From positions 145,054-209,053 of the forward strand of contig NZ_JAEANY010000004.1 in the NCBI RefSeq assembly GCF_016019885.1: a DNA stretch of 64,000 nucleotides, written 5' to 3'. The position numbers and the translations under genes are program-made. Origin of the DNA: Aurantiacibacter sediminis. Its GTDB lineage: Bacteria > Pseudomonadota > Alphaproteobacteria > Sphingomonadales > Sphingomonadaceae. Positions 1,910 to 60,840 of this stretch are shown piece after piece. Below the pieces are notes generated by a model that was not told where the DNA came from, did not search any database, and saw nothing but the letters and a program-made list of their open reading frames with translations. Each line of letters begins with the position of its first letter. The first letter of the stretch is position 1.

Positions 1910-1951
1910 GCCGGGCCGGTTAGCCTTTTTGCATGCCAGGGGGAAGGCTCT

Positions 1952-1978
1952 GATTGTGCCCCGAGGGGGCGATCAATC
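1952..1978 (-). terminator. Hairpin at the end of the lipoprotein gene
   Basis: GATTG/CAATC outer arms (1952-1956 and 1974-1978) and GCCCC/GGGGC inner arms (1958-1962 and 1966-1970) form an interrupted stem with a GAG loop. It overlaps the stop codon of the lipoprotein gene. There is no clear T-run, so this could be a terminator or a mRNA-stabilising hairpin ahead of argS. Confidence 0.4.
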
Positions 1979-2627: not shown

Positions 2628-2759
2628 ATACGTCCTTAAACCTGCGCGGCCGGGCATCGGCCTGTCTTGAATATCGGAGGGAGAGAAACGAAATCTCTTT
2701 TCCGAAAGAAGTGCCCCTAGCCCTTTCGCGGGGCAGCCACAACCGCTAGAGCTGACAGT

Positions 2760-3734
2760 ATGAACGCCCCCTTTCAGGAAAATCGCTCCGGCGAGAAAAA
2801 ATCGCCGCTCAAGGTCTTGATTGCAGCGCCGCGCGGCTTTTGCGCGGGCGTGGATCGCGCGATCGAGATCGTGGAACGCTCCATCGAACGCTATGGCGCG
2901 CCGGTCTATGTGCGGCACGAAATCGTGCATAATCGCTATGTGGTCGAGGGCCTGCGCGAAAAAGGGGCTATTTTCGTCGAGGAATTGGATGAAGTGCCGG
3001 ACGATGCACCGGTGGTATTCAGCGCGCATGGCGTGCCCAAATCCGTACCCGCAGAGGCCGAGCGGCGTGAGATGATCTATCTCGATGCCACTTGCCCCCT
3101 GGTAAGCAAGGTGCACCGCCAGGCCGAACGGCAGATCGAGAAAGGCCAGCACATCATCTTCATCGGCCATCAGGGCCACCCGGAAGTGATCGGCACAATG
3201 GGTCAAGTTCCCGAAGGCCGGATGACGCTGGTCGAAACTGTCGATGACGTTGCGAAGCTGTCATTCACCGAGGAAGACGACCTCGCCTTCCTGACCCAGA
3301 CGACTCTATCGGTCGACGATACGGCAGATGTCATCCGCGCTCTGAAGACGCGCTATCCGCAGATCATCGCCCCCAAGGCGGAAGACATCTGTTACGCCAC
3401 ATCAAACAGGCAGGCATCTGTGAAAGCCATCGCCGGTGAATGCCAACTTGTGCTGGTGATCGGCGCGCCCAATTCGTCCAACTCTTTGCGGCTGGTCGAA
3501 GTGGCAGAGCGCATGGGTGCAACATCCTACCTCATACAGCGGGCGGACGAAATCGATCCGGCCTGGCTGGAGAATGTCGATACGGTCGGCGTCACCGCCG
3601 GCGCTTCGGCTCCTGAAGTGCTCGTGCGCGAAGTGCTCGCAAAGCTCGGCGAGATGTGTGACGTAACCGAAGAGACCGTCCGGACGACCGAAGAGAAAAT
3701 GATCTTCAAACTGCCTCGCCAGCTGACCGAATAG
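2760..3734 (+). CDS. ispH: 4-hydroxy-3-methylbut-2-enyl diphosphate reductase
   Basis: This 324-residue IspH/LytB enzyme catalyses the last step of the MEP isoprenoid pathway, reducing HMBPP to IPP and DMAPP with a [4Fe-4S] cluster. The three cluster cysteines are visible in [11 protein letters not shown] near the N-terminus, [11 protein letters not shown] in the middle and [10 protein letters not shown] near residue 215. The length is typical. It is divergent from the lipoprotein gene and is followed 8 bp later by thrB, then rnhA, an arrangement often seen in sphingomonads. Confidence 0.97.
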
Positions 3735-3742
3735 GCCGCTTT

Positions 3743-4699
3743 GTGGCGGTCTACACGCAGCTTTCTGCAGAAACGCTGAGCGATCTCATCTCGCATTACG
3801 ACGTGGGCGAGCTCGTTTCGGCCAAAGGCATTGCCGAGGGCATTTCCAATTCCAACTGGCTGGTGGAAACTACGACCAGCCGGTTCATCCTGACCATGTA
3901 CGAGCGGCGCATCGACATTGCCGATCTGCCGTTTTTCCTTGGACTGCTCGATCATCTGTCCGCCAAGGGGCTGCCCGTTCCGCGCACGATCCACGATACA
4001 TCGGGGGCCGCCTCGCGCATGATAGATGGCAAGGCAGTGGCGCTGATCGAATTCCTGCCGGGTGTTTCGATCGACAATCCCACCCCTTCACAAGCACACA
4101 ATGTCGGCGCGGTGCTCGCGCGCCTGCACCTTGCCGCGGACGATTATCCGGGACGGCGGACGAATGATCTGGGGCCTGACACTTCACTGCACGTGCTCGA
4201 ACAGTGCGGGGCAGAGGCATTGGCTAGGATCGACGCAGAACTGCCTGAAATGCTTCCAATGGCCCGATCGATTGCCGCCGACTGGCCGAAGGATTTGCCG
4301 CGGTCAGTCATCCATTCGGACCTGTTCCCGGACAATGTGCTGATGCTGGGCGACGAAGTCAGCGGACTGATCGATTTCTATTTCGCCTGCCACGATATGA
4401 CTGCCTATGACCTGGCGGTTACGCATGCCGCGTGGAGTTTTGACCATGACGGTCGCAGCTTTCGCTCAGATATCGGCAGCGCCTTGATCGGCGGCTATCA
4501 ATCGGTGCGCGCGTTGAGTGTCGCAGAACGCGCGGCAATGCCCATTTTGGCGCGGGGCGCGTGCATGCGATTCATCTCCAGCCGGACGCAGGACTGGATC
4601 GATACACCGACAGATGCGCTCGTCACCCGTAAAGACCCGATGGATTTCGTCCGCCGCTTGCAATTCTACCAAAGCAATGGTGCAGAGCTCTTCGCATGA
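3743..4699 (+). CDS. thrB: Homoserine kinase (kinase-fold type)
   Basis: This 318-residue enzyme belongs to the ThrB type II/APH-like family, which phosphorylates homoserine in threonine biosynthesis and is unrelated to the GHMP-type enzyme. The catalytic loop is [13 protein letters not shown] and the metal-binding motif is [10 protein letters not shown]. The GTG at 3743 is used as start; it lies 8 bp after the ispH stop. The gene ends in an ATGA overlap with rnhA (4696-4699), which points to translational coupling. Confidence 0.94.
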
Positions 4700-5136
4700 A
4701 ACATGTCGAAATTTTCACCGATGGTGCCTGCAAGGGCAATCCCGGACCGGGCGGCTGGGGCGCATTGTTGCGCATGGGGCGGCATGAAAAGGAGCTGGTC
4801 GGCGCCGAGCCCGAAACCACCAACAACCGGATGGAAATGACCGCCGCGATCAAGGCGCTCGGCGCACTGATCGAGCCGTGCGAAGTAACGCTCTACACGG
4901 ACAGCAAATATCTGATCGATGGCATCACGAGGTGGGTCCACGGCTGGAAAAAGCGCGGCTGGGTCAACGCCAGCAAGAAGCCAGTGAAGAATGCCGATCT
5001 GTGGCACGACCTGATTGAGGTAGCATCCACCCATAAGATCAACTGGCAATGGGTGAAGGGCCACAATGGCCATCCGGAAAACGAGCGTGTCGATCAGCTC
5101 GCCAGCGATGCGGCTGACGCGATAAGTCGCGGCTAA
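4696..5136 (+). CDS. rnhA: Ribonuclease HI
   Basis: This 146-residue enzyme cleaves the RNA strand of RNA-DNA hybrids, for example R-loops and Okazaki primers. All catalytic carboxylates can be found: [16 protein letters not shown] (first Asp), [10 protein letters not shown] (Glu), [12 protein letters not shown] (second Asp) and NERVDQLA (last Asp). The start overlaps the thrB stop by 4 bp. A bidirectional terminator follows, and the next gene is convergent. Confidence 0.97.
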
Positions 5137-5152
5137 TTTCGCTCGGGCATGA

Positions 5153-5186
5153 AAAAGGCCAGCCCCGCACGGGACCGGCCTTCTTC
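5153..5186. terminator. Bidirectional terminator between rnhA and the YegP-like gene
   Basis: AAGGCC (5155-5160) pairs with GGCCTT (5177-5182) around a GC-rich interior. TTCTTC follows on the plus strand and TTTTTC on the minus strand. It lies between two convergent genes, as expected for a shared terminator. Confidence 0.7.
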
Positions 5187-5206
5187 AAATCCGCTGCTGA
5201 AAAGCC

Positions 5207-5383
5207 TTAGCTCTCGTCGACGATCTTCGCGCCGGGGCCATTCTTCTGGATCGATTCGATAGCATTCTTGGCGCTGGCCTTGGACGAATAGCCTTCGGTC
5301 GAAAACATGATCTCGTCATTATATTTGAAGCGGACACGAAATTCGCCGGCCTTGTCCTTATAAATCTGGAAATGATGCGCCAT
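5207..5383 (-). CDS. YegP/DUF1508-family small protein
   Basis: This short gene encodes 58 residues beginning MAHHFQIYKDKAGEFRVRF and continuing with YNDEIMFSTEGYSSKASAKN. That is the DUF1508 (YegP) fold: a single beta-beta-beta-alpha unit with the characteristic EGYSSKASAKNAIESI stretch. GGAGAG lies 8 nt upstream of the ATG, which supports the start. Many YegP proteins carry two tandem copies of the unit; this one has a single copy. The function of the family is not established. The gene is convergent with rnhA. Confidence 0.92.
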   Translation of the reverse strand: MAHHFQIYKDKAGEFRVRFKYNDEIMFSTEGYSSKASAKNAIESIQKNGPGAKIVDES

Positions 5384-5456
5384 GGAAATGCTCTCCTCTA
5401 GTGGTTGTAATCTTCAAGCTGAATTGGCGGCAGCATAACAAATTGACACCGCTTGG

Positions 5457-6566
5457 CTAGGCCACCGGGAGGGCAAAGCGATCTGGCGTGTATAAATTTA
5501 CATCCAGAGCCTCGGTCATGGCATCCCGGTCCTGTCCGCTGGCCAATTGTGCGCCGAGGCGCGCAGCGGCAGGCGCGGTCTGGATTCCGTAGCCGCCCTG
5601 GCCGGCGAACCAGAACAAGCCATCCAGCTCGGGATCGAAGCCGTAAACCGGCAGGCGATCTGGTGAAAAGCTGCGCAGCCCCGCCCATTTGTGCTCCACC
5701 GCCTCGATTTCCCAATCGACCACGTGCTGGAACCGATCGATCGCGAGCGCGATGTCCATCTCTTCAGGCGCGGCATCGCATGGCTCCGATGGCGTTTCAT
5801 CATGCGGACTGAGCCAAAGCTTCCCGCTTTCCGGGCGGAAATAGAAGTCGCCCGAGAGATCGAGCGTAAGAGGCAGGTCGGCAGGCGCTGACGGATTGAC
5901 GCGCAATTGCGCCACTGTTCGGCGTAGCGGCTGGATGCCTATCGGACGCGCGCCGCACAATAGCGAGACACTGTCTGCCCAGGCTCCCGCGGCATTGATC
6001 ACCACAGCCGCACGCACTTCTCCGGCGGTCCCGAAATCGAGCCGCCAGTCCGCCCCGTCTCGCGCTGCCGCGGCCAAACGGTGACGGGTTCGCAATTCGA
6101 CCCGGCCTTTTCGCGCAAGCGAGAGGTAGTGCTGATGTAGGCCGCCCACATCGATGTCCGCGCAATTGGGCTGGCTGAGAGCGTGATCCCATCCCGGCAG
6201 CACGCCGGGCAGCATCTGCTCCAGCCCCGCACGATCCAATCGCCTGATCGTCACGTCAGAATCGGCGAAGCGTTCGAGAAAGCTGTCGACTTCCTCTTCC
6301 TGCCCCGCGCGCCCGACATACAAACCGCCGCGCGGCGTCAGGAAACCGCCCTCCTGAAGATACGGGCCCGAAGCCAGCGTCAGCGGAACGATATCGGGGC
6401 CGCCGTAACACTCTTCGCGAAAGGCAGCGGACCGACCCGTCGTGTGATAACCCGGACGATCCTCTGCCTCGGCCAGCAACACGCGGCCATGCGGAGCGAG
6501 TTCGGCAGCGATACTCGCCCCGGCCATGCCCGCGCCGATTACAGCGAAGTCGAACGTCTCACTCAT
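5457..6566 (-). CDS. FAD-dependent amine/D-amino-acid oxidoreductase (DauA-like)
   Basis: This 369-residue DAO-family flavoenzyme starts with the dinucleotide-binding motif VIGAGMAGASIA (residues 9-20). The motif PGYHTTGRSAAF (38-49) and the C-terminal GQGGYGIQTAPA both resemble the D-arginine dehydrogenase (DauA) group of soluble FAD dehydrogenases. Family knowledge suggests oxidation of a D-amino acid or similar amine; the substrate cannot be read from the sequence. The start codon overlaps the stop of the upstream hydrolase (ATGA, 6563-6566), so the two are probably translated together. Confidence 0.85.
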   Translation of the reverse strand: MSETFDFAVIGAGMAGASIAAELAPHGRVLLAEAEDRPGYHTTGRSAAFREECYGGPDIVPLTLASGPYLQEGGFLTPRGGLYVGRAGQEEEVDSFLERFADSDVTIRRLDRAGLEQMLPGVLPGWDHALSQPNCADIDVGGLHQHYLSLARKGRVELRTRHRLAAAARDGADWRLDFGTAGEVRAAVVINAAGAWADSVSLLCGARPIGIQPLRRTVAQLRVNPSAPADLPLTLDLSGDFYFRPESGKLWLSPHDETPSEPCDAAPEEMDIALAIDRFQHVVDWEIEAVEHKWAGLRSFSPDRLPVYGFDPELDGLFWFAGQGGYGIQTAPAAARLGAQLASGQDRDAMTEALDVNLYTPDRFALPVA

Positions 6567-7543
6567 CCCGTCAGCTTTCGCTCCAGGAAATCATCGATGG
6601 CTTCCAAAGCTCGATTTCGCACGGAGTCTTCTTCGCGAAGGATTTCATGCCGCGCTTCGGATCCGAAAGTCAGGTGGTCGACATCGGGCAGGCGTGCAAT
6701 GGCGCTTCGGATTGCCGCCGGGCTCACAAGCCTGTCCGCATTGGTCGCGATCACAAACACGGGCAGATCCACCGCTTCGAGCGCGCCCTTCGTGAAGATC
6801 TTTGCCGTGCTGTGATAAGCGGCATTCACCCAGCCCCAGCTGCCGGGGCCAAGCTCCAGCTCGGGGCGACTCTCGCGCCACCACAGTTCATCGGCATAGC
6901 GATCCTCATCATGGGTCAGCAGCGTATTGCGCAGGCCGGGCTTGGCACCGGGTTTTTCACTCATTTTCCATGCGGGACGTTTGGGATCGCCAATGCGCGC
7001 CATCATGCTGGCAAAGCCGCGCTTGACCGGGAGCGGCAGATGCTCGGGCATAGTGTCGAGCATGGGTGCGGAAAGAATCAATGCGTCAGGCGCAGGAGAT
7101 AGCGCCTCGTCGATCACCGCGCGCAAAGTCAGGTGGCCGCCCATGGAGTGGCCTGCCAGCACGCGCGGGCCGGAATGGCGAGCGGCCCATGTCCCCCAGA
7201 AGGCGGCGAGGTCTGCCACCCACAGATCGAAATCGTCGATATGGCCCGTTGCCTTGTCATTGCCGAGACGACCCGATCCGCCCTGCCCACGCCAATCCGC
7301 CGCCGAAACCCGCCAGCCCTGCAGGCGCCAATGCTCGAAGGTTTCGATATATTTCTCATAGGCATCGCCGCGCCCTGCCATGAACAGCATCGCGCCTTTT
7401 GGAGCGATGCCGGCGGGCGGGTCCGGCCAGTCGATATGGCGGATCTGGTGCCCGTCAGGCGCATGCCACATGCCCTCTCGCGCATCGGCCGGAATGGCCC
7501 TGCGATCGAATGCGGCAGCGATGACGCTTATGCTTTGGCTAAT
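6563..7543 (-). CDS. Alpha/beta hydrolase, lysophospholipase-like
   Basis: About 326 residues belong to the serine hydrolase (Hydrolase_4, PldB-like) family. The nucleophile elbow is GHSMGG, preceded by an oxyanion-region GRGDAYEKY and a DWRGQGGSGR motif typical of lysophospholipase L2-like enzymes; the C-terminal part keeps HLTFGSEARHEIL with the likely catalytic His. The start is a problem. The only strong ribosome binding site (AGGAGG, 7549-7554) is 5 nt upstream of an ATT codon at 7543, with no ATG, GTG or TTG in frame until the ATG at 7471. A TTG at 7603 is in frame but has no ribosome binding site and abuts the cpaA start region. I place the start at ATT with low certainty; the coding identity is firm. 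Confidence 0.82.
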   Translation of the reverse strand: MSQSISVIAAAFDRRAIPADAREGMWHAPDGHQIRHIDWPDPPAGIAPKGAMLFMAGRGDAYEKYIETFEHWRLQGWRVSAADWRGQGGSGRLGNDKATGHIDDFDLWVADLAAFWGTWAARHSGPRVLAGHSMGGHLTLRAVIDEALSPAPDALILSAPMLDTMPEHLPLPVKRGFASMMARIGDPKRPAWKMSEKPGAKPGLRNTLLTHDEDRYADELWWRESRPELELGPGSWGWVNAAYHSTAKIFTKGALEAVDLPVFVIATNADRLVSPAAIRSAIARLPDVDHLTFGSEARHEILREEDSVRNRALEAIDDFLERKLTG

Positions 7544-7548
7544 TTCAA

Positions 7549-7554
7549 CCTCCT
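7549..7554 (-). promoter_or_regulatory. AGGAGG ribosome binding site in front of an ATT codon
   Basis: A perfect Shine-Dalgarno sequence lies 5 nt upstream of an in-frame ATT codon (7543-7541). The TTG that overlaps its 3' end is out of frame and reaches a stop within seven codons. This site is the main evidence for where the hydrolase begins. Confidence 0.6.
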
Positions 7555-7621
7555 GCCCTTGGTTACTATTTGGTAAGCCATAAGCGCTAGCACGAGCATC
7601 CAAGGGATATTTGGGGGCTTT

Positions 7622-8158
7622 ATGCTAGACGATCCAATCAAGTACGGACTGCTTGCGGCATTGGCAATTGCGCTGATCATCGCAGCTATCACCGATCTCA
7701 AAAGCCGCCGCATCGCGAACAAGCTGAATGCGGCGATTGCTCTTGGCGCACCGCTGTTCTGGTTTGCTTCGGGCATGAGCTTTCTGCCGTCTGGCGATGG
7801 CTGGTTCGAACCGACCAGCGTCGTGATGCAGCTTGCCCTCGCTCTCGTGACCTTTGCCGTGCTTTCCGTTTTATTCGCTTTGAGGTGGATGGGAGGAGGC
7901 GATGTAAAGCTCCTGACCGCGCTCGCGTTATGGATCGCTCCAGCAACTTTCGGAAAGCTGCTTATCATGATGGCGCTACTCGGCGGCGTACTGACTTTAG
8001 TCTTCGGGTCGATCAACGTCATGTCCCGCCGCCACTCAAAAAGCAGCGAGAAAAATCCACTTACCATTCCATATGGCGTGGCCATCGCACTCGCCGGCCT
8101 GTGGGCCATCGGCACATTCTATCTTCCCGCATCGGCAGCCGCCGGTGTGACGGGGTGA
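7622..8158 (+). CDS. cpaA: Prepilin peptidase of the Tad/Flp pilus
   Basis: This 178-residue integral membrane aspartyl protease belongs to the A24 (TadV/CpaA) family, which cleaves the leader from Flp prepilins. Both catalytic aspartates are present, in AITDLKSRRIANKLN near residue 25 and in MGGGDVKLL near residue 98. About five or six hydrophobic helices can be seen. It lacks the N-terminal methylase domain of PilD, as is usual for the Tad type. It is the first gene of the pilus cluster and is divergent from the hydrolase gene. Confidence 0.92.
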   Translation: MLDDPIKYGLLAALAIALIIAAITDLKSRRIANKLNAAIALGAPLFWFASGMSFLPSGDGWFEPTSVVMQLALALVTFAVLSVLFALRWMGGGDVKLLTALALWIAPATFGKLLIMMALLGGVLTLVFGSINVMSRRHSKSSEKNPLTIPYGVAIALAGLWAIGTFYLPASAAAGVTG

Positions 8159-8233
8159 ACCTCATTTTAACCATTGTCGGTCTATCCCGACCGCAACGTA
8201 ATCCGAGATCCAAATAAGGGGGCTTGACGCACC

Positions 8234-9340
8234 ATGGACAAGAAGAAGCTCATTTTGTTGGTAGGGGCACTGGTCATTGCGATCGGTACGGCCCTTGCTG
8301 CCCGGAGCATGTTCGCCGGCGCGGCGGCTCCTGAAGTCGAAGCTGCCGAACCGGAGCCGCAAGGCCCCAAAGTGCTGGTTGCGAAACGCAGCCTGCCGGT
8401 CGGCACGATCATTACTGCAGATGCGGTGGGCTACCAGCTCTGGCCGCAGGAACTGGTGCAAGACGCCTATTTCATCGACGGTGAAGCTGACATGGAGCAG
8501 CTGCTGGGTACGGTTGTTCGCAACCCGATGACGGCAGGTGAGCCGGTGACACAAGGTTCGCTCGTATCGCCTGGCGATCGCGGCTTCCTTGCCGCTGCGC
8601 TCGGCCCGGGCATGCGCGCTGTGACCGTTCCGGTTAGTGCACGCACCGGTGTGGCAGGCTTTGTCTTCCCGGGTGACCGCGTCGACATGATGCTGACCCA
8701 GACCGTGACGGGTGAAGGCGGCGGTGCAGGGCAAGCTCTGCAGGCGGCTGAAACCATCCTTACCAATCTGCGCGTCCTGGCGACCGACCAGTCGACCGAA
8801 ACCACGCAAACCGAAGACGGCCGCACCGTGGTTCGCGCATTCCGTACGGTGACGCTGGAAGTGACCCCGCGCATTGCCGAACAGATCGCGGTTGCACAGA
8901 CGATCGGTACGATCAGCCTGGCGCTGCGTTCGATCGCCGACAACCAGACCGAGCTTGAGCGCGCTATTGCCTCTGGCGATATCGACCTGCCCGATGATGC
9001 AACGCCCGAAGAAGAAGAAGCATTGCTTCGTTCTGCCTCCGCACGTCCGGGTGAAGGTGCCAGCTCTTACCAAACCGGCGGCGATGTCTCTCGCTTCCAG
9101 CGTAGCACGGTTCCCTCGCGCGCTCCGGCTCCGCAGCCTGACAATGCCCAGCCTGCACCGGCACCTGGCGGTGCACTAGCTCCGGCCGTCCAGATGGGCC
9201 CCTCGGTCCGTGTGACCCGTGGCCAGAACACCACTGTTGAACCGGTCGACCGCGGCGCAGGCGCTCTGCTTGATCGCCAGGCTGGAGCCATGGGCCAGGG
9301 TGCCCGGGTCGCTCCGGTCGGCATGTCGACCCTGCGGTGA
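8234..9340 (+). CDS. cpaB: Flp pilus assembly protein CpaB/RcpC
   Basis: This 368-residue periplasmic protein has one N-terminal membrane anchor (residues 5-22). A SAF-type domain begins around VLVAKRSLPVGTIITADAV, and an RcpC/CpaB beta-domain follows (VTVPVSARTGVAGFVFPGDRVDMM). The last 90 residues are rich in Pro, Ala and Gln and look disordered. CpaB-type proteins help assemble the outer-membrane secretin of the Tad machine. The stop overlaps the region just before cpaC, so co-expression is likely. Confidence 0.93.
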   Translation: MDKKKLILLVGALVIAIGTALAARSMFAGAAAPEVEAAEPEPQGPKVLVAKRSLPVGTIITADAVGYQLWPQELVQDAYFIDGEADMEQLLGTVVRNPMTAGEPVTQGSLVSPGDRGFLAAALGPGMRAVTVPVSARTGVAGFVFPGDRVDMMLTQTVTGEGGGAGQALQAAETILTNLRVLATDQSTETTQTEDGRTVVRAFRTVTLEVTPRIAEQIAVAQTIGTISLALRSIADNQTELERAIASGDIDLPDDATPEEEEALLRSASARPGEGASSYQTGGDVSRFQRSTVPSRAPAPQPDNAQPAPAPGGALAPAVQMGPSVRVTRGQNTTVEPVDRGAGALLDRQAGAMGQGARVAPVGMSTLR

Positions 9341-9408
9341 TCGCCATGACCCAGACAAAACATTCTAATCGCTCAATTTCCCGCGGGAATTTTCCGAAAG
9401 GCAAGACT

Positions 9409-10998
9409 ATGACCAGCCGTCTTTTCAAGACCGTCATGAGTGCCGCTGTCGCGCTCACGCCGCTGGCGATGCTGCCGGCCGCTCCGGCCCAGGCCCAGTC
9501 CGTTGCACCGGCACAGGATCTCGTCCTGTCAATTGGTCGCGGCGAATTGGTGACTGTGCCCGGCAATATGGCCGACATCTTCGTTGCCAATAATTCCATC
9601 GCCGATGTGCAGGTGAAGTCGCAGCGTCAGCTGTATATCTTCGGCCTTTCAGGCGGCGAGACCACGATTTACGCCAGCAATGCTGCAGGTGACATCATTT
9701 GGTCTGCCAATGTCCGTGTGGGCTCCAACATTGACAGCATCGATCAGATGCTGGGCCTCGCAATGCCGGAAGCCAATGTTTCGGTCGCCACGATGGGAAC
9801 CAACACTGTGCTGCTGACCGGCACGGTGGCGGCTCCTGAAGACGCTGCCGAAGCAGAGCGCCTGGTACAGGCTTTCGTAGGCGAGGATGCCAATGTCATT
9901 TCCCGCCTGCGTATGGCGACGCCGCTGCAAGTCATGCTGCGCGTTCGCTTTGCCGAAGTCAGCCGTTCGCTGGTTCGCAATATCGGCGCTAACCTGACGT
10001 CTGTCGATAGTGGCGGGGGTTTCCAATTCGGTGTCGGTACGGGCCGCGAGGGCTTTTTCCAGGGCGGTACGGGTCTTAACGCATTGGGCGTTGGCAATGT
10101 GCCGACCGGCCTGATCCCCGACCCGAACAATCCGGGCCAATTCATCGAGGGAACCGGCACGCAGATCAATCCGATTTCGCCCGGCGGCACAATTGCCGGA
10201 ATGGGCGAGTTCCTCGGCCTCGACCTGCTTGGCGCACTCGACCTTGGCGAACGCCGCGGTCTGGTGACCACCCTTTCCGAACCGACCCTGGTCGCGCTTT
10301 CGGGTGAGACGGCAGAATTCCTTGCTGGCGGTGAATTTCCGATCCCGCTGAGCCAGGGCCTTGGCACCACCACCGTCCAATATCGCGATTTCGGTGTCAG
10401 CCTGTCTTACACGCCGACGGTCCTTTCCAACGGCCGCATTTCGATGCGCGTCCGCCCGGAAGTATCCGAGCTGTCGACGCAAGGTTCGGTCGTTCTTAAC
10501 GGCTTCCAGATCCCTGCTCTGACGATCCGCCGCGCGGAAACGTCGATCGAGCTGGGATCGGGCGAAAGCTTCATGATCGCCGGCCTGATGCAGAACAACG
10601 CGCAGAACACTGTCGACCAGATCCCGGGCGTGGGTGACATGCCCATCATCGGCAATTTGTTCCGCTCGACGGAATTCCGCCGCGGTGAAACCGAGCTGGT
10701 GATCGTTGTGACGCCTTATTTGGTCGAGCCGGTCAATGATCGTGACATCCGCTTGCCGACCGACGGCTTCGCCGTCCCCGATGCAGCTGCGCAGGTCATG
10801 ATGGCTCAGGAAACCGACGGAACCACTGGCCGGATACGTCCGATGCCGCGCCCGGCGAACCCTTCGCCGACCGGTCCGGACCTTAGCCTGATCGAACAGA
10901 ATGGCACCGCTGTTGCTGGCGGGGAAACCCCCGGCGCAGCTGCGCCCCAGTCCGCCGCGGCAGCTGTGCCCGGCTTCAGCTTCGACGATGGAGAGTGA
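9409..10998 (+). CDS. cpaC: Tad/Flp pilus secretin CpaC/RcpA
   Basis: About 529 residues form the outer-membrane secretin channel. The chosen ATG at 9409 opens a classical signal peptide (MTSRLFKT... ending AQA near residue 29). An N-terminal pilus-specific domain (DLVLSIGRGELVTVPGN) and a BON-like segment follow, then the secretin core with VPGVGDMPIIGNLF-type signature (read as IPGVGDMPIIGNLFRS) and VVTPYLVEP. The C-terminal 80 residues are Pro/Ala-rich. A longer reading from 9337 or 9346 would add about 20-24 residues before the signal peptide and is less likely. The stop overlaps the region just before cpaD. Confidence 0.93.
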   Translation: MTSRLFKTVMSAAVALTPLAMLPAAPAQAQSVAPAQDLVLSIGRGELVTVPGNMADIFVANNSIADVQVKSQRQLYIFGLSGGETTIYASNAAGDIIWSANVRVGSNIDSIDQMLGLAMPEANVSVATMGTNTVLLTGTVAAPEDAAEAERLVQAFVGEDANVISRLRMATPLQVMLRVRFAEVSRSLVRNIGANLTSVDSGGGFQFGVGTGREGFFQGGTGLNALGVGNVPTGLIPDPNNPGQFIEGTGTQINPISPGGTIAGMGEFLGLDLLGALDLGERRGLVTTLSEPTLVALSGETAEFLAGGEFPIPLSQGLGTTTVQYRDFGVSLSYTPTVLSNGRISMRVRPEVSELSTQGSVVLNGFQIPALTIRRAETSIELGSGESFMIAGLMQNNAQNTVDQIPGVGDMPIIGNLFRSTEFRRGETELVIVVTPYLVEPVNDRDIRLPTDGFAVPDAAAQVMMAQETDGTTGRIRPMPRPANPSPTGPDLSLIEQNGTAVAGGETPGAAAPQSAAAAVPGFSFDDGE

Positions 10999-11003
10999 TC
11001 ACC

Positions 11004-11663
11004 ATGACCAATCGTAACAAACGCTTTGCCGCGACAGCCGTGGCACTCTCGCTCGGTGTCGGTCTTTCCGCCTGCGGAACGCTGAACGAAGGCCCGCAGA
11101 ATTTCTCGCTCGACAGCGTGAATCAGCCGATCGTCGAACGCCAGAACTACACTCTGGATGTCGCCAGCGGCGGCAGCGGTCTCTCGGTTCCCGAACAGGC
11201 GCGCCTTGCAGACTGGTTCGAAACGCTCGACCTTGGCTATGGCGATCGCATCGCCGTGGATGATCCGACGGCCAGCCCCGCTGTGCTGGAAGATGTCGCA
11301 GCAGTCGCAAGCCGCTTCGGCCTGCTGGTCAGCCCAGATGCGCCTGTCACCAATGGCTTCGTCGATCCGGGCAATGTCCGCATTGTCGTCACCCGCTCCA
11401 TGGCCAGCGTTCCCGGCTGCCCGATCTGGCGTGACCAATACGGCATCGAGCAGGGCAACCAGACTTCGCCCGGCTTCGGCTGCGCGGTCAACAGCAACAT
11501 CGCCGCCATGGTCGCCAATCCTGAGCATCTGCTCGAAGGGGAAAGCGGCACTGGTGACACTGTAATCATGCGGTCCAACCGCGCCATCGATGCATATCGT
11601 GAAGCGGAACCGTCAGGCAATGGCGGCACCTCGCTGCCGCGTGTTTCTTCGGAAGGGGGCTAA
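11004..11663 (+). CDS. cpaD: CpaD-type pilus assembly lipoprotein
   Basis: This 219-residue protein has a lipobox LSAC with the lipidated Cys at residue 24. The mature part has the CpaD features GSGLSVPEQARLADWFETLDLGYGDRI and, near the C-terminus, VPGCPIWRDQ and GFGCAVNSNIAAMVANPEHLLEG. CpaD/TadG-like lipoproteins assist secretin function in Tad pili. GGAGAG sits 8 nt before the ATG at 11004; an in-frame GTG at 10995 is the alternative. It is part of the cpaA-E run. Confidence 0.92.
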   Translation: MTNRNKRFAATAVALSLGVGLSACGTLNEGPQNFSLDSVNQPIVERQNYTLDVASGGSGLSVPEQARLADWFETLDLGYGDRIAVDDPTASPAVLEDVAAVASRFGLLVSPDAPVTNGFVDPGNVRIVVTRSMASVPGCPIWRDQYGIEQGNQTSPGFGCAVNSNIAAMVANPEHLLEGESGTGDTVIMRSNRAIDAYREAEPSGNGGTSLPRVSSEGG

Positions 11664-11667
11664 TCTA

Positions 11668-12969
11668 ATGAGTTCAAGTTGGAAACCCGGACCGCTCGGC
11701 AATCGCGAGCCGTTCTCTGCCTTCATCTGCGACGATGGTGCACTGGATGCACTGCGCCCCGTAGTGATCGAAATGGGCTGGCAGCCGGAGAAGTGCAACA
11801 AGGGCGGTCTGCGTAACGCGATCCAGTCCCTCTCCATCTCCGCAAGCCCGGCCATCTTGATGGTCGATCTGTCGGAAAGCGGCGATCCGCTGAATGATAT
11901 CAACGCTCTTGCCGAGGTTTGCGAACCGGGCACGGTGGTGATCGCAGTGGGCCAGGTGAACGATGTTCGCTTGTATCGCGATCTGCTGGCAAGCGGCATT
12001 CACGATTACCTGCTGAAGCCGCTTTCGGCGAGCCAGCTGCGCGATTCGCTCACGCAGGCCCAGGCGGTGTTCTCTTCGCCGCGCGGCGGCGATGGTGAGC
12101 AGGAGCACACCCATATCTCGACCGCTGTGGTCGGCACGCGTGGCGGCGTTGGTGCCTCCACTCTCGCCACCTCGCTCGCTTGGCTGTTCTCGGTCGAACA
12201 TGAGCGTTCGACTGCGCTGCTCGATCTCGATGTGCATTTCGGCACCGGCGCGCTTTCGCTGGATCTGGAGCCGGGCCGCGGCCTGACCGATGCGATCGAA
12301 AACCCGAGCCGTATCGATGGCCTGTTCATTGAGCGTGCGATGATCCGCGCGAATGACAATCTCGCCATCATGTCTGCCGAAGCGCCGATCAATTCGCCGC
12401 TGATGACCGACGGCACGGCTTTCCTCCAACTGGAGGAAGAATTCAGCCAAGCCTTCGACATGACGGTGATCGATCTGCCGCGCAACATGCTGATTAACTT
12501 CCCGCATCTGCTGACAGATGTGAATGTTGTGACGCTGATGACCGAGCTGACGCTCGCCTCTGCCCGCGATACGATTCGTATTCTGTCGTGGTTGAAGCAG
12601 AATGCTCCGGGTGCACATCCGATGATCGTCTGCAACAAGATGCAGGGCGGCGCAGCTGAAATCAGCAAGGCTGACTTCGAGGCTTCGATCGAACGGAAAA
12701 TCAACTTCCAGATTGCGATGGACCAGAAGGCGGCTGCCAATGCTGCGAAGCTCGGCCAGACGTTTATCGAAGCCAACAAATCTTCCAAAACGGTCGGCCC
12801 GATGCGCGATATCGGCAACACCATTATCGGCGTAGCCGATGATGACGGCGCCAGCCTGGAAGAAAGCGGCAAAAAGGGCGGTGGCCTCGGCAAATTCGAC
12901 CTGAAATCTTTCTTGGGCGGCATGTCCAAGAAGGACAAGGGCGCAGAAGCCGTCGAAGCAGCCGAATGA
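11668..12969 (+). CDS. cpaE: Pilus assembly protein CpaE (MinD/ParA-like ATPase)
   Basis: This 433-residue protein has an N-terminal receiver-like domain (residues 1-130, ending HDYLLKPLSASQLRDSL) and a MinD/ParA-like ATPase domain. The deviant Walker A is GTRGGVGASTLA, with Arg where ParA proteins often have Lys, as is typical of CpaE. CpaE helps localise the Tad machine; it is not the assembly motor. GGAAGGGGG precedes the ATG at 11668, which follows the cpaD stop closely. The gene normally next in this locus, cpaF/tadA, is missing. Confidence 0.92.
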   Translation: MSSSWKPGPLGNREPFSAFICDDGALDALRPVVIEMGWQPEKCNKGGLRNAIQSLSISASPAILMVDLSESGDPLNDINALAEVCEPGTVVIAVGQVNDVRLYRDLLASGIHDYLLKPLSASQLRDSLTQAQAVFSSPRGGDGEQEHTHISTAVVGTRGGVGASTLATSLAWLFSVEHERSTALLDLDVHFGTGALSLDLEPGRGLTDAIENPSRIDGLFIERAMIRANDNLAIMSAEAPINSPLMTDGTAFLQLEEEFSQAFDMTVIDLPRNMLINFPHLLTDVNVVTLMTELTLASARDTIRILSWLKQNAPGAHPMIVCNKMQGGAAEISKADFEASIERKINFQIAMDQKAAANAAKLGQTFIEANKSSKTVGPMRDIGNTIIGVADDDGASLEESGKKGGGLGKFDLKSFLGGMSKKDKGAEAVEAAE

Positions 12970-12975
12970 TCGTGA

Positions 12976-13002
12976 CGGAGCGGGTCTTCAAGGCCCGCTC
13001 CG
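12976..13002 (+). terminator. Strong hairpin between cpaE and tadB
   Basis: CGGAGCGGG (12976-12984) pairs perfectly with CCCGCTCCG (12994-13002) around a 9-nt loop. No T-run follows, so Rho-independent termination is uncertain. It may attenuate read-through or mark an mRNA processing point. It sits where cpaF is commonly found. Confidence 0.6.
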
Positions 13003-13043
13003 CCATGCTCGCCAACTGAATTTACGTAAAGAGAAGGCGGACA

Positions 13044-14015
13044 ATGAACATCATCCAGCTCGTGCTTGTGGCCGGTGGCCTGATGGGATTGATGATCCTT
13101 GGCTATGTCCTGTTGAACGGGAAATCACCGGGCAAGGAAAGCCAGCGTCGCCTCGAGGCGGTGCGTTATCGCCATTCTGAAAGCACCACAGACAAGGTTG
13201 AAGGGCAGCTGAAGAAAGCCATCGCCGCGCGCAAGCCGAAGCAGTTCAAAGCTGCAGGTTCCGGTTCTCGCGTCGAGGCACTTGAAGTCCGTCTGAACCG
13301 TACAGGCATGGGCTGGACGCTGCAGCAATATCTGTACGTATCGCTGGGCCTGGCTGTCGTAGTGACCGCGCTTGCCTATCTGCGCACGGGCGCAGCGCCA
13401 ATTTCGCTCGGCATCGGGCTGGTCATCGGTGCGGGCTTGCCGCACCTGATTGTCGGCCATTTCATCAAGCGCCGGACCAATCAGTTTAACGCCAAGTTTC
13501 CGGATGCCATCGAGCTGTTGGTGCGCGGCCTGCGCTCCGGCCTTCCCGTTGCGGAAACGCTGTCCGTCGTAGGTCAGGAAATTCCCGGCCCGGTGGGTGT
13601 CGAATTCCGCCAGGTGGTGGAGCGGATCAAGATTGGCCGCACCATGGAGGAATCCTTGCAGGAAGCCTCGGACAAGCTCGGCACGGCAGAGTTTCAATTC
13701 TTCGTCATCACCCTCGCCATTCAGCGCGAGACGGGTGGCAACTTGGCAGAGACGCTGTCGAACCTTGCCGACGTGCTGCGCAAGCGCGCGCAGATGAAGC
13801 TGAAGATCAGGGCGATGAGCTCCGAATCCAAGGCCTCAGCCTATATCGTGGGTGCTCTGCCCTTCATCGTGTTCGGCATGATCTACTGGATCAACCCCAC
13901 CTATATTGGCGGCTTCTTCGAAGATGAACGCCTGATTGTCACCGGCCTGTTCGGCCTCGTTTGGATGGGCATCGGTGCCTTCATCATGGCCAAGATGGTC
14001 AGCTTCGAGATCTAA
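13044..14015 (+). CDS. tadB: Tad pilus inner-membrane platform protein TadB
   Basis: This 323-residue type II secretion F-domain protein has an N-terminal membrane helix, a long basic cytoplasmic segment, further helices near residues 95-145, the GspF-type cytoplasmic domain (FPDAIELLVRGLRSGLPVAETL, then RETGGNLAETLSNLADVLRKR) and two C-terminal helices. TadB and TadC together form the platform that works with the TadA/CpaF ATPase. It is preceded by AAGAGAAGGCGG and followed closely by tadC. Confidence 0.93.
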   Translation: MNIIQLVLVAGGLMGLMILGYVLLNGKSPGKESQRRLEAVRYRHSESTTDKVEGQLKKAIAARKPKQFKAAGSGSRVEALEVRLNRTGMGWTLQQYLYVSLGLAVVVTALAYLRTGAAPISLGIGLVIGAGLPHLIVGHFIKRRTNQFNAKFPDAIELLVRGLRSGLPVAETLSVVGQEIPGPVGVEFRQVVERIKIGRTMEESLQEASDKLGTAEFQFFVITLAIQRETGGNLAETLSNLADVLRKRAQMKLKIRAMSSESKASAYIVGALPFIVFGMIYWINPTYIGGFFEDERLIVTGLFGLVWMGIGAFIMAKMVSFEI

Positions 14016-56504: not shown

Positions 56505-57278
56505 TCACACGAGCGCGAACAGCCGTCCTGCCGCCCAGCCCATTAGCACTGAGAGGCCGACGGCTAAGAGGCCATACAGAAGAGCATTATTGTTCGCTTC
56601 CTCCTCGACGCGCCGCTCGAAACCTTCCTTGAACACCTGCACTTCGGATGTCGCAGAGGTGATCACCCGGCCATCGGCAATGGCGAAAGTTTCCGCGACA
56701 TAGCGGCCCGCGATCACATTGGACGGGATCGGCAGGCGCGCGCGATACAGCACACCTTCGGACACCTGCACTCCGGTCTCATATTCGGCAAAGAGCCCCT
56801 GCCGCTGCCGGAGATCGACGAGGCCGGCGGTAAAACGCGCTTGCTCGTTAGGATCAATCGATCCGGATGGCGAAAGCTGGAGATAATCGAGGCCCAGCTC
56901 AAAAATCAGCGCTGTGCGTTCATCGACGATATCATCGATCGGGCGCGAACTGGCGAGGGCGTAATATGACGGCACGGATCGGAAGTCGCTGCTTTCCGCG
57001 TTAACCCAGATGAGGCCAAGCCACCGCTCTTTCTCGCGCAGTCGGATTTGCTCGCTTGGGCCTTTAAGGACCACCACGACATCATATTGCCCTTGCGCCC
57101 GGCCACCGCGCGGATCGAGAATGGCTCCGAAAAGCAGCAGGTCCGCACCGGTAAAGCCTTGGCGAAGCACAATCTCATGCTCGGAAATATCGGGCACCAG
57201 GATGGGATCACGCGTCTGCGCCATAGCGGGTGAAGCGAGCATCATCGTCAGCAGGAGGGCGAGCAGCGCGCGGATCAT
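56505..57278 (-). CDS. TIGR02186-family membrane protein
   Basis: The protein has 257 residues. A signal peptide (MIRALLALLLTMMLASPAMA) is followed by a beta-rich domain starting LVPDISEHEIVLRQGFTGADLLLFGAI and ending near a C-terminal membrane helix (LLYGLLAVGLSVLMGWAAGRLFAL). The pattern matches TIGR02186, an alphaproteobacterial family usually next to a TauE/SafE permease. Its function is not established. Its ATG overlaps the TauE stop by 4 bp (57275-57278), so they act as one unit. Confidence 0.88.
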   Translation of the reverse strand: MIRALLALLLTMMLASPAMAQTRDPILVPDISEHEIVLRQGFTGADLLLFGAILDPRGGRAQGQYDVVVVLKGPSEQIRLREKERWLGLIWVNAESSDFRSVPSYYALASSRPIDDIVDERTALIFELGLDYLQLSPSGSIDPNEQARFTAGLVDLRQRQGLFAEYETGVQVSEGVLYRARLPIPSNVIAGRYVAETFAIADGRVITSATSEVQVFKEGFERRVEEEANNNALLYGLLAVGLSVLMGWAAGRLFALV

Positions 57279-58192
57279 AAGGGCACCACTGTATACACTT
57301 CGTCGGGTCGGACACCGAGGCCCCACAACATGCGTAGCGCAATCGCGACGACGATGGAGGCGAGGATGAGGCGCAGAAATTCGGGCTTCACCAATTGCGC
57401 AATCTTTGTGCCGAATTGTGCCCCGATCACAGAGCCGAGCAGGAGCAACCCTGCCAATACGATATCGACTGCGCGTGTGGTGAACGCGTGCACCATGGTC
57501 ACCAGCATGGTGATAAAAAGGATGTTGAACAGGCTGGTGCCGACCACGACTTTTGCACTCATGCCAAGGATATAAAGCATCGCCGGGACCATGATGAAGC
57601 CGCCGCCCACACCCATCAGCATAGTAAGCGTGCCGACGACAATCCCCAGCAACAGCGGCGCAATCGGCGAAATATACAGGCCAGATCGATAGAAGCGCCA
57701 ACGATAGGGCATGGCTGCGATCAAGGGGTGATGGCGACGCTTGGCCGCGCGCGGTTTGCCGCTGCCCACGCTGACATAACCCAGCGATTGCAGCGCTTCG
57801 CGAAGCATGAGCGCCCCGATCGTGCCGAGCAGCAGGACGTAAAGAATATTGATGACGGTATCTATCTGCCCGATCGCGCGCAGGAGATTGAACAATCCGG
57901 CACCGAGCAATGCTCCCAGCATGCCACCCGCAACGATCACCCCGCCAAGGTGATAATCGACACCTTTGTTCCGACCATGGGCGATAACGCCCGAAACGCT
58001 TGCCCCTGTCACCTGTGTGGCGGCCGAAGCGGCTGCAACGGTCGGCTGGATGCCGAAAAAGATCAGCAATGGCGTGGTCAGGAAGCCTCCACCTACGCCG
58101 AAAAGGCCTGAAAGAATGCCCGTCAGTGCGCCCAACAGGACGATCCACAGCCCGTTGACCGACAGATTGGCAATAGGGAGGTAGACGTCCAT
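57275..58192 (-). CDS. TauE/SafE-family anion exporter
   Basis: This 305-residue polytopic protein has the two TauE/SafE repeats, each beginning in a glycine-rich helix: TGILSGLFGVGGGFLTTPLLI near residue 25 and LTMLMGVGGGFIMVPAMLYILG near 190. Family members export sulfite, sulfoacetate or related organosulfur anions. The partner TIGR02186 gene overlaps its 3' end. It lies 54 bp downstream of the NfrA-like gene. Substrate unknown. Confidence 0.92.
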   Translation of the reverse strand: MDVYLPIANLSVNGLWIVLLGALTGILSGLFGVGGGFLTTPLLIFFGIQPTVAAASAATQVTGASVSGVIAHGRNKGVDYHLGGVIVAGGMLGALLGAGLFNLLRAIGQIDTVINILYVLLLGTIGALMLREALQSLGYVSVGSGKPRAAKRRHHPLIAAMPYRWRFYRSGLYISPIAPLLLGIVVGTLTMLMGVGGGFIMVPAMLYILGMSAKVVVGTSLFNILFITMLVTMVHAFTTRAVDIVLAGLLLLGSVIGAQFGTKIAQLVKPEFLRLILASIVVAIALRMLWGLGVRPDEVYTVVPL

Positions 58193-58246: not shown

Positions 58247-59428
58247 CTAAAAACCGGCCGACAGTGTGAGCGCAGGGCCACTAGATGGCTCAGCTTCGCC
58301 CGCCACTCTCAGTCGGTAATCGGCAGACACCCGGCCACGTGCGTCGCCAAGACGGAAGCTGACAGAAGCGCTCGGCCCGATATCCAATCGCCCGGAGCCT
58401 TCCTGCACCCCGCCCCAAGCGCCGGCACCTGCTTCAAGCCGGAAATCTTCCGTGCCAACCACGCGGCGGGTAATGCGCGCTTGCCCATCGACAAAGCCAG
58501 TGGCGAAGTCACCTGTCACATAGCCGCCTTGGATGTAGGCCTCTCCGGTCAGTCCGGCAGGCAGATTCACAGGCGGGAACTCGCTCACAGCATAGGCTGC
58601 GCCGCGCAATTCGGTGCCGCGATCGGTCTCGCTCACCCGCGCTTCTGCCGCCAGCCGAACGGGGATGGCAGGGATAGGCCTCGCCGATGCGCCGAAAGCA
58701 GCTTCACGCTCGCGCTGCCCCTCAAGCGCGTGGACACCGCGCAGGTGCAGCTGCGGATTGTGTCCGCTCGACGGGGCGAGATGATATCGAATTACTGCAC
58801 CTGCTTGGCCGCGCCCATAGCTCGGTCGACCGGAGAGGATTGGTGTCGTCGTATCGTCCCGCCACAGCGCCCAAGCATCGAGCGACCAGCGCCGCAAATC
58901 GCCGCCGCCGCGCATGGTCGCGCTTGCCGTCGAATCGGTCGCCGACTGAGCACCGCGAAGTGTGAGCGAGCTGTCGGCAAAAAGGCTTGACGCAGCGACT
59001 GGCGCGGCTGCGCTGTTACGATAGCCGGCCTGCAACAGGAGAATGTGACCAACCAAGCGGCCTGCACCGGCAAAGCCGCGCATCGCTCCTGTCGAATGGC
59101 CGACCGATTGAAGCGCGCGCGGCTGGGGTTGGTGCGGCGGAGGGATACGCTCCGGCACGGGCTGCGGCACCCAGCGCGGCTGAGGCGGCATAATGCGTCC
59201 TGGCAATTGCTCGGGCGCGTCATCATCGCGTTCAGAACTATCTGGCTCGTCAGGCATTGGCGCCACAATGCCGAGCGATGGTGCATCCGCAATCACGTTG
59301 AGCGACGCGGGATCGAATGGCGGAGCCCAGGTGATCACACGCACACTCGCCCAAGCGGCGAGCAAGCCGACAAACGCGAATATCGCCTTGCCGCGCGGGC
59401 GGTATGCAGGGGCGGCGTTAGAGCTCAT
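58247..59428 (-). CDS. Inner-membrane-anchored, proline-rich protein with an NfrA-like beta domain
   Basis: The protein has 393 residues. It starts with a single membrane helix (about residues 15-33) and a proline-rich linker (57-104, runs such as PPQPRWVPQPVPERIPPPH). The rest is beta-rich with alternating hydrophobic residues and ends in LTLSAGF, an outer-membrane-type C-terminus. The C-terminal part resembles the C-terminal domain of phage N4 adsorption protein A (NfrA). The start overlaps the stop of the NfrB-like glycosyltransferase gene by 4 bp. NfrA-like function is inferred mainly from this pairing. Confidence 0.72.
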   Translation of the reverse strand: MSSNAAPAYRPRGKAIFAFVGLLAAWASVRVITWAPPFDPASLNVIADAPSLGIVAPMPDEPDSSERDDDAPEQLPGRIMPPQPRWVPQPVPERIPPPHQPQPRALQSVGHSTGAMRGFAGAGRLVGHILLLQAGYRNSAAAPVAASSLFADSSLTLRGAQSATDSTASATMRGGGDLRRWSLDAWALWRDDTTTPILSGRPSYGRGQAGAVIRYHLAPSSGHNPQLHLRGVHALEGQREREAAFGASARPIPAIPVRLAAEARVSETDRGTELRGAAYAVSEFPPVNLPAGLTGEAYIQGGYVTGDFATGFVDGQARITRRVVGTEDFRLEAGAGAWGGVQEGSGRLDIGPSASVSFRLGDARGRVSADYRLRVAGEAEPSSGPALTLSAGF

Positions 59429-60840
59429 GAAGCCTGCTCCGCCAGCTCGTCACTGCCGCTCGCCTGCGCCGGATGATAGGTGTGGTCTGTCACTTCCCAT
59501 TGCGGGGATTGGCCGCGCAAGGTGCGCGAATAGGCCATCAGCGCACGTCGGCCCGCCATGATCGCGATAATGTTGGAAACAGGGATGCGCAGAACCGCGC
59601 GAAACCCTTCGGCGAAGCCATATTCGCGCGTTGTGAAGGAAAATCGCATCACAATTCGCCACGCGAAAGCCAACATATTGGCGAGCAGCAAGCCATAGAG
59701 CAGCGGTGACAGCTCCCACGCGTTTCCAAATCCTGCAAGGTCGAGCAAAGCAAGTCCGCCGCTCAGGAGCAGCAGCGAATAGCCTGCAAACAATACGAGC
59801 GCCGAGAATGGCCCACGCCGATCGCGCAGTCTCATCCAATTCTCGGCAAGCGAATTTTCCCAGCCGAGCCTGTCCCAACCCTGGAACGCAATGCCATGGA
59901 TCCAGCGCGATTTCTGCCGCACCGCCCGTGCGATGGAGGAAGGGAAATAGCTGCGCGTTGCAATCAGCTGGCCGTCTTCCCCGCGCACCCGCATGAAGCG
60001 GGAGCGACCGCCGAATTCCGCGACGCGCAGGCCCATTTCATAATCTTCGGTCAGCGATTGATCGGAGAATGGCGATTTGTCGTCATTATCCCGCGCCATC
60101 AGATCGAGGATGTTCCGCGAAAAAGCGCAGCCGACGCCAGCTGCGGGGAGGCCCGTGCCAAGCGCATCGCGCACGGCCATTGCCTTGCCATGCGCCTCGG
60201 CAAATTCCTCGCAATAATGGCTGCCGATCCAGCGAGAGGATGGCTGCGGTATCGGCAGGACAGGCAATTGCACGAAATCGGCATTGTCCAGCGTCCGGTC
60301 GATCAGCGCCAGCGCGGCGGGATCCACCAGATCTTCCGCATCATGCAACAGCACGCTTCTGATCGGCTGGTTGCGGCGCTCCTCGTCCTGCAGCATCGCG
60401 CGGTACAGGCGATTGAGGCAATCTGCCTTGGTCGATGGGCCATCCTTGTCATGCACCACCAACCGCACGCGGCTATCGCGCGACGCGGCCTTGATCGCGG
60501 CCTGAAGCGTGGCGGGATCATTGCGGTAGCAGCCGACGTAAAACACCAGGTCACGCTGCTTCCAGGCATGGAGAGTGTGGCCGAGCATATGTCCGATCAC
60601 GCGCGCTTCATCCCAGGCCGGAATGAAAACGGCGATCCGGCCGCTCAATTCGCGATGCCGCAAATCGGCGCGCGACACACTGTGGGTGCGGATCTTGCCG
60701 CGCAGGCGAAGCCAGGCCCAGGCGAAATCCATGGCGATCTCGTCCAGCGCACCCAGCAGGAAAAAGACCCCTGCAAACAACAGCAATTCATATTCGGCCA
60801 GCGCCAGCCATTCCAGCACAGACCATTCCCCCAGGTCCAT
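59425..60840 (-). CDS. NfrB-like processive glycosyltransferase
   Basis: This 471-residue family-2 glycosyltransferase has N-terminal membrane helices (about 15-45) and a cytoplasmic GT-A core. The catalytic signatures are intact: KAD (138-140) after the Asp at 131, HDAED (166-170), TED (264-266) and QKSRW (309-313). C-terminal helices follow from about 340 to 430. The sequence matches the N-terminal domain of phage N4 receptor protein NfrB, without the C-terminal MshEN/c-di-GMP-binding domain of the E. coli protein. It likely builds or secretes a polysaccharide with the NfrA-like partner. Confidence 0.85.
   Translation of the reverse strand: MDLGEWSVLEWLALAEYELLLFAGVFFLLGALDEIAMDFAWAWLRLRGKIRTHSVSRADLRHRELSGRIAVFIPAWDEARVIGHMLGHTLHAWKQRDLVFYVGCYRNDPATLQAAIKAASRDSRVRLVVHDKDGPSTKADCLNRLYRAMLQDEERRNQPIRSVLLHDAEDLVDPAALALIDRTLDNADFVQLPVLPIPQPSSRWIGSHYCEEFAEAHGKAMAVRDALGTGLPAAGVGCAFSRNILDLMARDNDDKSPFSDQSLTEDYEMGLRVAEFGGRSRFMRVRGEDGQLIATRSYFPSSIARAVRQKSRWIHGIAFQGWDRLGWENSLAENWMRLRDRRGPFSALVLFAGYSLLLLSGGLALLDLAGFGNAWELSPLLYGLLLANMLAFAWRIVMRFSFTTREYGFAEGFRAVLRIPVSNIIAIMAGRRALMAYSRTLRGQSPQWEVTDHTYHPAQASGSDELAEQAS

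Follow-up and report, generated by a model that had tools for sequence, protein, structure and literature searches.

We analyzed a stretch of 64,000 nucleotides of the Aurantiacibacter sediminis genome (the window) and found an overlapping gene pair that we read, with a probability of roughly 0.57, as a two-gene NfrBA-type polysaccharide synthase/exporter. Its second protein would be a diverged NfrA without TPRs, anchored in the inner membrane and providing its barrel as exit port. In the proposed mechanism, the glycosyltransferase would build a polymer from a nucleotide sugar at the inner membrane, handing the chain outward, with the 12-strand barrel of the partner protein serving as the port in the outer membrane. 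The NfrA-type TPR scaffold would have been lost from the partner, whose N-terminal helix would remain in the inner membrane next to the synthase, and helix and barrel would be joined by a proline-rich arm whose ~140 residues would suffice to cross the periplasm.

The gene pair and the NfrB-type synthase

The first-pass annotation had described two overlapping genes, and both open reading frames are indeed present on the minus strand (Table 1). The partner gene lies directly downstream of the NfrB-type gene, as is the case for NfrA. Among homologous pairs with a readable start, 38 of 45 have the same start offset of -4.

Table 1. Features of the gene pair and its downstream neighbors (positions within the window)
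Feature	Position	Strand	Basis
NfrB-type family-2 glycosyltransferase, putative polysaccharide synthase, 471 aa	59425..60840	-	NF011307, Pfam Glyco_tranf_2_3
KAD motif, synthase residues 138-140	60421..60429	-	sequence
HDAED (DxD-type) motif, synthase residues 166-170	60331..60345	-	sequence
TED motif, synthase residues 264-266	60043..60051	-	sequence
QKSRW (QxxRW) motif, synthase residues 309-313	59902..59916	-	sequence
4-nt stop/start overlap of synthase and partner genes	59425..59428	-	ORF reading
Short NfrA-type partner protein, 393 aa	58247..59428	-	profile comparisons with NfrA
N-terminal membrane helix of partner, residues 15-34, W26-x3-R30-x3-W34; probable uncleaved inner-membrane anchor	59327..59386	-	hydrophobicity, N-terminus comparison
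Predicted periplasmic linker of partner, residues 35-177, 143 residues with 21 Pro, no TPR found	58898..59326	-	composition, Pfam
Predicted C-terminal outer-membrane beta-barrel domain of partner, residues 178-393, 12 predicted strands, terminal Phe	58250..58897	-	profiles, AlphaFold, VIA
TauE-type exporter and Alph_Pro_TM protein directly downstream of the pair	56508-58192	-	neighbor scan

The glycosyltransferase had been credited with every catalytic signature of the NfrB/BcsA type, and we located all four in the synthase: KAD, for which we assume a catalytic role, HDAED, TED, and QKSRW. The processive GT2 signature (DxD, TED, and QxxRW) is complete. Hydrophobic peaks lie at residues 14-37, 348-366, and 380-402. 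The protein scores above the cut-off of NCBIfam NF011307 (NF011307/PRK14716 group; 597.8 bits, cut-off 431) and matches Pfam Glyco_tranf_2_3 (5.6e-33) as well as further Pfam GT domains. The NfrB model PRK11234 scores below its cut-off (281.1 bits, cut-off 1170), with an alignment confined to the GT part. Comparison with the sequences of solved structures gave no matches at 0.001.

The first-pass claim that this enzyme lacks a c-di-GMP-binding domain was likewise borne out, as the Pfam scan found no MshEN (PF05157) match in the synthase and PRK11234 aligns over the GT part only. MshEN has no match anywhere in the window's genome either (the E. coli control was positive), and the synthase is single-copy there. 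The missing MshEN is not special to the window's synthase, because PF05157 was not found in any of the nine scanned synthases of other families in the order either, three of which are extended at the C-terminus by a stretch with room for a diverged MshEN (L078, L082, L083), and because 136 published NfrB homologs lack it, the domain being present in 1,705 of 1,841 according to the available sections of that survey (PMC8669469).

The enzyme could instead be a non-processive glycosyltransferase of a glycolipid pathway, with a functionally unrelated partner. Such a role is compatible with the NfrB literature, which in the portions accessible to us contains no characterized enzyme of this exact subfamily. 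However, the kept QxxRW, TED, and DxD motifs, the relationship to NfrB, and the fact that its gene overlaps that of an NfrA-type barrel and co-occurs with it make this very improbable, and a processive synthase is the reading we retain.

Relation of the partner to NfrA and its distribution

Neither Pfam nor NCBIfam has a family that matches the window's partner at E 1, and no TPR model in Pfam matches it at that threshold. Pfam NfrA_C (PF13283) has no match to the partner, nor to anything elsewhere in the window's genome, yet profile-profile comparison does connect the partner with the NfrA C-terminal family via intermediates. Using hhalign, we aligned the C-termini of 44 partners with those of 10 NfrA proteins (nine from other families of the order plus E. 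coli NfrA) and obtained a probability of 99.3% (E 1.1e-20) over 222 columns reaching the last residue; controls (one reversed and 10 shuffled profiles) gave a probability of at most 0.3%. The full partner set has 47 members after dropping one with an internal stop (L038), and the 44-row profile also leaves out L099, L100, and L101. In HMM comparisons, for which the search size was fixed at 10,000, the partner HMM matched nine of the 10 NfrA proteins (E 3e-10 to 2e-20), missing E. coli NfrA. Conversely, the outgroup NfrA HMM placed 37/47 partners above the HMMER inclusion threshold, with the window's own partner below it (E 0.075). The partner profile did not reach E. coli NfrA alone (probability 0.4%, E 0.15), and because this direct comparison fails, the link between the two runs via intermediates of the same order. 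The outgroup profile matches E. coli NfrA at E 2e-61, which is circular because the profile includes that protein, and this value was not used.

Judged by these profiles, the partner ends in a diverged form of the NfrA C-terminal barrel and is a shortened NfrA. The first-pass annotation had presented the pair as unlike the E. coli NfrA/NfrB system, a wording that finds no support, since the C-terminal half of the partner is homologous to the NfrA barrel. What stands of that proposal is a synthase without MshEN, a partner of helix, linker, and barrel, and the two-gene pairing; a new kind of partner does not. The reading that the partner is not related to NfrA is ruled out by the profile comparison. 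We also looked for a separate NfrA and an MshEN-containing NfrB in the genome and found neither; with a single-copy synthase and no NfrA_C or MshEN match elsewhere in the genome, we reject a second full system. Neither of the two tests that the first-pass annotation had named overturns its proposal.

We surveyed co-occurrence in 119 genomes of the window's family, including its own. Of these, 107 have the synthase and 98 the partner, the latter always together with the synthase; in 96 of the 98 the partner is adjacent, downstream, and on the same strand, so the pairing is not due to chance. The two non-adjacent pairs come from a fragmented assembly with the synthase and partner matches on different contigs (G097), and from a genome in which the synthase stops ~260 bases before a contig end and a partner-like match lies on another contig (G113). 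Nine genomes have a synthase without a partner match. Five of these have an NfrA-like ORF downstream, as detected by profile (G020, G038, G040, G052, and G056), G007 has partner pieces only, and G025 and G034 have no partner in the stretch up to the contig end. The ninth, G057 (L120; two contigs, 6.6 Mb), has an open frame for the synthase, and the ~5 kb downstream of it show no detectable partner. The 107 synthase matches include broken or partial ones: three interrupted genes (G036, G017, and G081), a deletion remnant (G073), two with an internal stop (G003 and G097), one in two pieces on two contigs (G112), and two that are fragmentary (G007 and G070).

NfrA_C was found in 3/119 family genomes (two above cut-off), the window's genome not among them. 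Outside the family but within its order, NfrA_C occurs in 10 of 16 genomes, and the synthase in exactly the same 10. When 289 genomes of the class were searched with the barrel profile, there were 11 matches, five in the window's family. Of the six outside it, five correspond to NfrA-type ORFs that are long (566-740 aa, with some truncated where the locus ends), and the sixth (L131) gave no match on re-examination. Four of the long ORFs were scanned; all have NfrA_C and three have TPRs, the 625-aa L129 being without. Among these samples, which are thin outside the family, the short TPR-less form appears only in the window's family.

An architecture scan of 10 NfrA-like proteins found several combinations of TPR and NfrA_C. 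Among those from outside the window's family but within its order, L063, L064, and L065 have a TPR above cut-off plus NfrA_C, L067 has a TPR just under cut-off plus NfrA_C, and L068 and L071 have NfrA_C but match no TPR model; proline-rich stretches were seen by eye in L063, L068, and L071. Within the window's family, L099 (G040; 1633-3243) is a 537-aa NfrA with NfrA_C above and TPR below cut-off, possibly an ancestral form. L100 has a weak TPR match only, L101 a weak NfrA_C match only, and L086 no match. A synthase tree (one gene, FastTree) with E. coli as root places most of these on branches that diverge ahead of the TPR-less majority to which the window belongs; L099, a member of the window's family, is placed outside family f6.

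Anchor, linker, and barrel of the partner

As first annotated, the partner has a membrane helix, seen as a single hydrophobicity peak at residues 15-33, followed by a linker rich in proline. The motif [WY]xxxR occurs within the first 60 residues of 44/45 readable partner N-termini (its instance in L099 may be fortuitous), and in the W form in 43/45; shuffled N-termini have WxxxR in a mean of 6.7/45 and a maximum of 17 over 1,000 runs. These counts cover 45 of the 47 partners, with L095 and L098 left out for an unreadable start. In the 43 N-termini that were aligned (L099 and L100 left out), an extra Trp lies four residues past the Arg in 31. The best aligned signal-peptidase position past the hydrophobic core is permitted in 16/43 by loose and 10/43 by strict rules, and a position within the core, two residues ahead of the Trp, in 29/43 and 16/43, respectively. 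The conserved W-x3-R and the want of a well-conserved signal-peptidase site, weighed against the permitted in-core position, favor an uncleaved anchor without settling the matter; the helix is thus probably held in the inner membrane, with the N-terminus inside.

The in-core position, together with the strict site of some kind that 22/43 N-termini have past the core, would suit an ordinary exporter, in which the helix is a cleaved signal peptide, the proline-rich stretch a periplasmic stalk, and the whole an NfrBA system with its TPRs worn away. We regard this as credible but unlikely, because a conserved aromatic residue and Arg (44/45) and an extra Trp in most N-termini would be unexpected in a discarded signal peptide, and no strict site is common to more than 16/43 at one aligned position.

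With the helix retained as an anchor, the linker would have to reach the outer membrane. An extended chain measures ~0.3 nm per residue, and a typical periplasm is narrower than 25 nm. The linkers of 43 homologs have 91-195 residues and 7-26% Pro (median 13%); by these values, the shortest of them could already span more than 25 nm, wider than a typical periplasm. A single partner chain may cross both membranes.

The C-terminus had been described as beta-rich and ending in Phe, in keeping with the structure prediction. AlphaFold modeled residues 171-393 (three input sequences) as a 12-stranded barrel with a mean pLDDT of 67.3, although two of the five models reach pLDDT 67 and the other three only 31-33. 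Modeling the full length gave a poor result (pLDDT 43.3), and a fold search with that model points weakly towards outer-membrane barrels. Foldseek with the barrel model found no match at E 0.001 (best E 6e-3). VIA-align gave Z scores of ~10-11 against many outer-membrane barrels, with 9.7 for the polysaccharide secretin 4y25, which we take to be PgaA, and 9.9 for the porin KdgM; such tied scores indicate the general barrel fold only. The lumen-side residues, as assigned by alternation, include 17 Arg, no Lys, and 10 Asp/Glu, which hints at an anionic substrate, though high-GC codon usage may also favor Arg over Lys there. One account gives the pore of E. coli NfrA 16 strands (PMC8669472), and a pore of 12 strands would be narrower.

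A narrow 12-strand barrel and a pore model of modest confidence leave some room for a barrel without an export role, either a Wzi-like surface anchor or receiver or a mere membrane tether, with another protein doing the exporting. The homology to the NfrA barrel, the close pairing with the synthase, and a six-neighbor scan that found no other polysaccharide-export gene argue against it, and we consider it quite improbable. Export through the partner's own barrel would account for the pair more readily.

Donor sugar, genomic setting, and related systems

The neighborhood of the pair has a divergent nhaA-type gene upstream and, beyond the TauE-type exporter and Alph_Pro_TM genes, a HerA-type ATPase gene downstream, then a radical-SAM gene on the other strand that is presumably QueE-like. 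In another Aurantiacibacter locus (L001), ORF reading found the genes from nhaA through the HerA-type ATPase in the same order, with one extra gene before the QueE-like one. A TauE-like ORF after the partner was seen by eye in 5/6 loci (L113, L114, L115, L116, and L118). The six neighbors scanned include no extra polysaccharide or polysaccharide-export gene.

Excerpts of the E. coli work report that NfrB requires WecB, from which its authors inferred a UDP-ManNAc donor (PMC8669469). The window's genome has one PF02350 gene, which is wecB by TIGR00236 (432 bits, cut-off 210), with a UDP-ManNAc dehydrogenase gene (wecC; 594 bits, cut-off 459) right after it. PF02350 is present in 113/119 family genomes. 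The synthase is missing from four of the six genomes without PF02350 and from 8/113 with it (Fisher p 8e-4, ignoring relatedness; two of those four belong to the same genus). Perhaps, then, the synthase also uses a donor of the UDP-ManNAc type.

Several loci of the family have a disrupted synthase. In L113 (G036; 2673-13151), the gene is split by an ~11-kb element in which five of six scanned ORFs match PHROGs, including an integrase, a primase/helicase, a large terminase, a portal, and a major head protein. This looks like a small prophage or a capsid-encoding satellite within a putative phage-receptor gene. In L114 (G017; ~1132-4622) and L115 (G081; ~1151-4563), which belong to two genera, the synthase is split at different points by ~3.5-kb elements with an IS1595-type transposase, accompanied in L115 by an NYN-domain gene. 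L116 (G073; 785-1449) is a deletion remnant in which synthase residues 3-51 and partner residues 272-371 are matched and nearly abut. Repeated disruption of the synthase recalls the broken nfrB or dgcJ reported for some E. coli strains in the accessible part of one study (PMC8669472), and would fit phage selection.

Among the closest known systems is E. coli NfrB/NfrA, the N4 glycan receptor system. In the sections available to us (PMC8669469, PMC8669472), it shares with the window's pair a GT with DxD, TED, and QxxRW, a downstream, overlapping gene whose product is an outer-membrane barrel from the same family, and a WecB-type epimerase in the genome. E. coli NfrA consists of a signal sequence, TPRs, and a barrel (PMC8669469). 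In contrast, the window's synthase has no MshEN match, and its partner has 393 aa against 990 in NfrA, no TPR found, an apparently uncleaved helix, a proline-rich linker, and 12 predicted strands against the 16 described. Downstream, a TauE-type gene follows the window's pair and ybcH follows that of E. coli.

TonB has an inner-membrane N-terminal helix, then a proline-rich periplasmic span and a small terminal periplasmic domain that touches receptors. The helix and proline-rich span of the partner are similar; unlike TonB, it ends in its own predicted barrel. Well-known synthase-dependent exporters have a TPR scaffold between synthase and pore. Such scaffolds are described in the accessible portions of two papers (PMC8669472, PMC12141448). 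One of these, in the part available, proposes that PelB of Pseudomonas aeruginosa keeps an apolar N-terminal helix without a signal-peptidase site in the inner membrane while its C-terminal barrel sits in the outer one, a layout by which a single chain may span the two (PMC12141448). Compared by architecture, the partner may have the bridging layout proposed for PelB, but PelB spans by a long TPR scaffold and works with PelC, and the partner would span by a proline-rich linker. In the open-licence literature, we found nothing on NfrB in Sphingomonas or on N4 adsorption in Sphingomonadales, no useful account of trans-envelope barrels with proline-rich linkers, and no description of this variant.

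A more specific model, which we put forward tentatively and at somewhat under even odds, would have the bridging chain docked on the synthase via W-x3-R-x3-W, its disordered arm passing through the peptidoglycan to an arginine-lined barrel. Two proteins alone would then make and export an anionic polymer without a TPR scaffold, a co-polymerase, or a built-in c-di-GMP switch, having evolved from NfrA by graded TPR loss in one order.

For the window's genome, these analyses provide a likely identity for a protein that goes unrecognized by Pfam, NCBIfam, and the NfrA_C model. The analogy with E. coli also suggests a possible phage receptor of the window's family. A widespread scaffold-free form in one family, if real, would raise the question of whether a single protein can stay anchored in the two membranes during barrel assembly, and would represent a minimal two-gene system for polymer hand-over across the periplasm.
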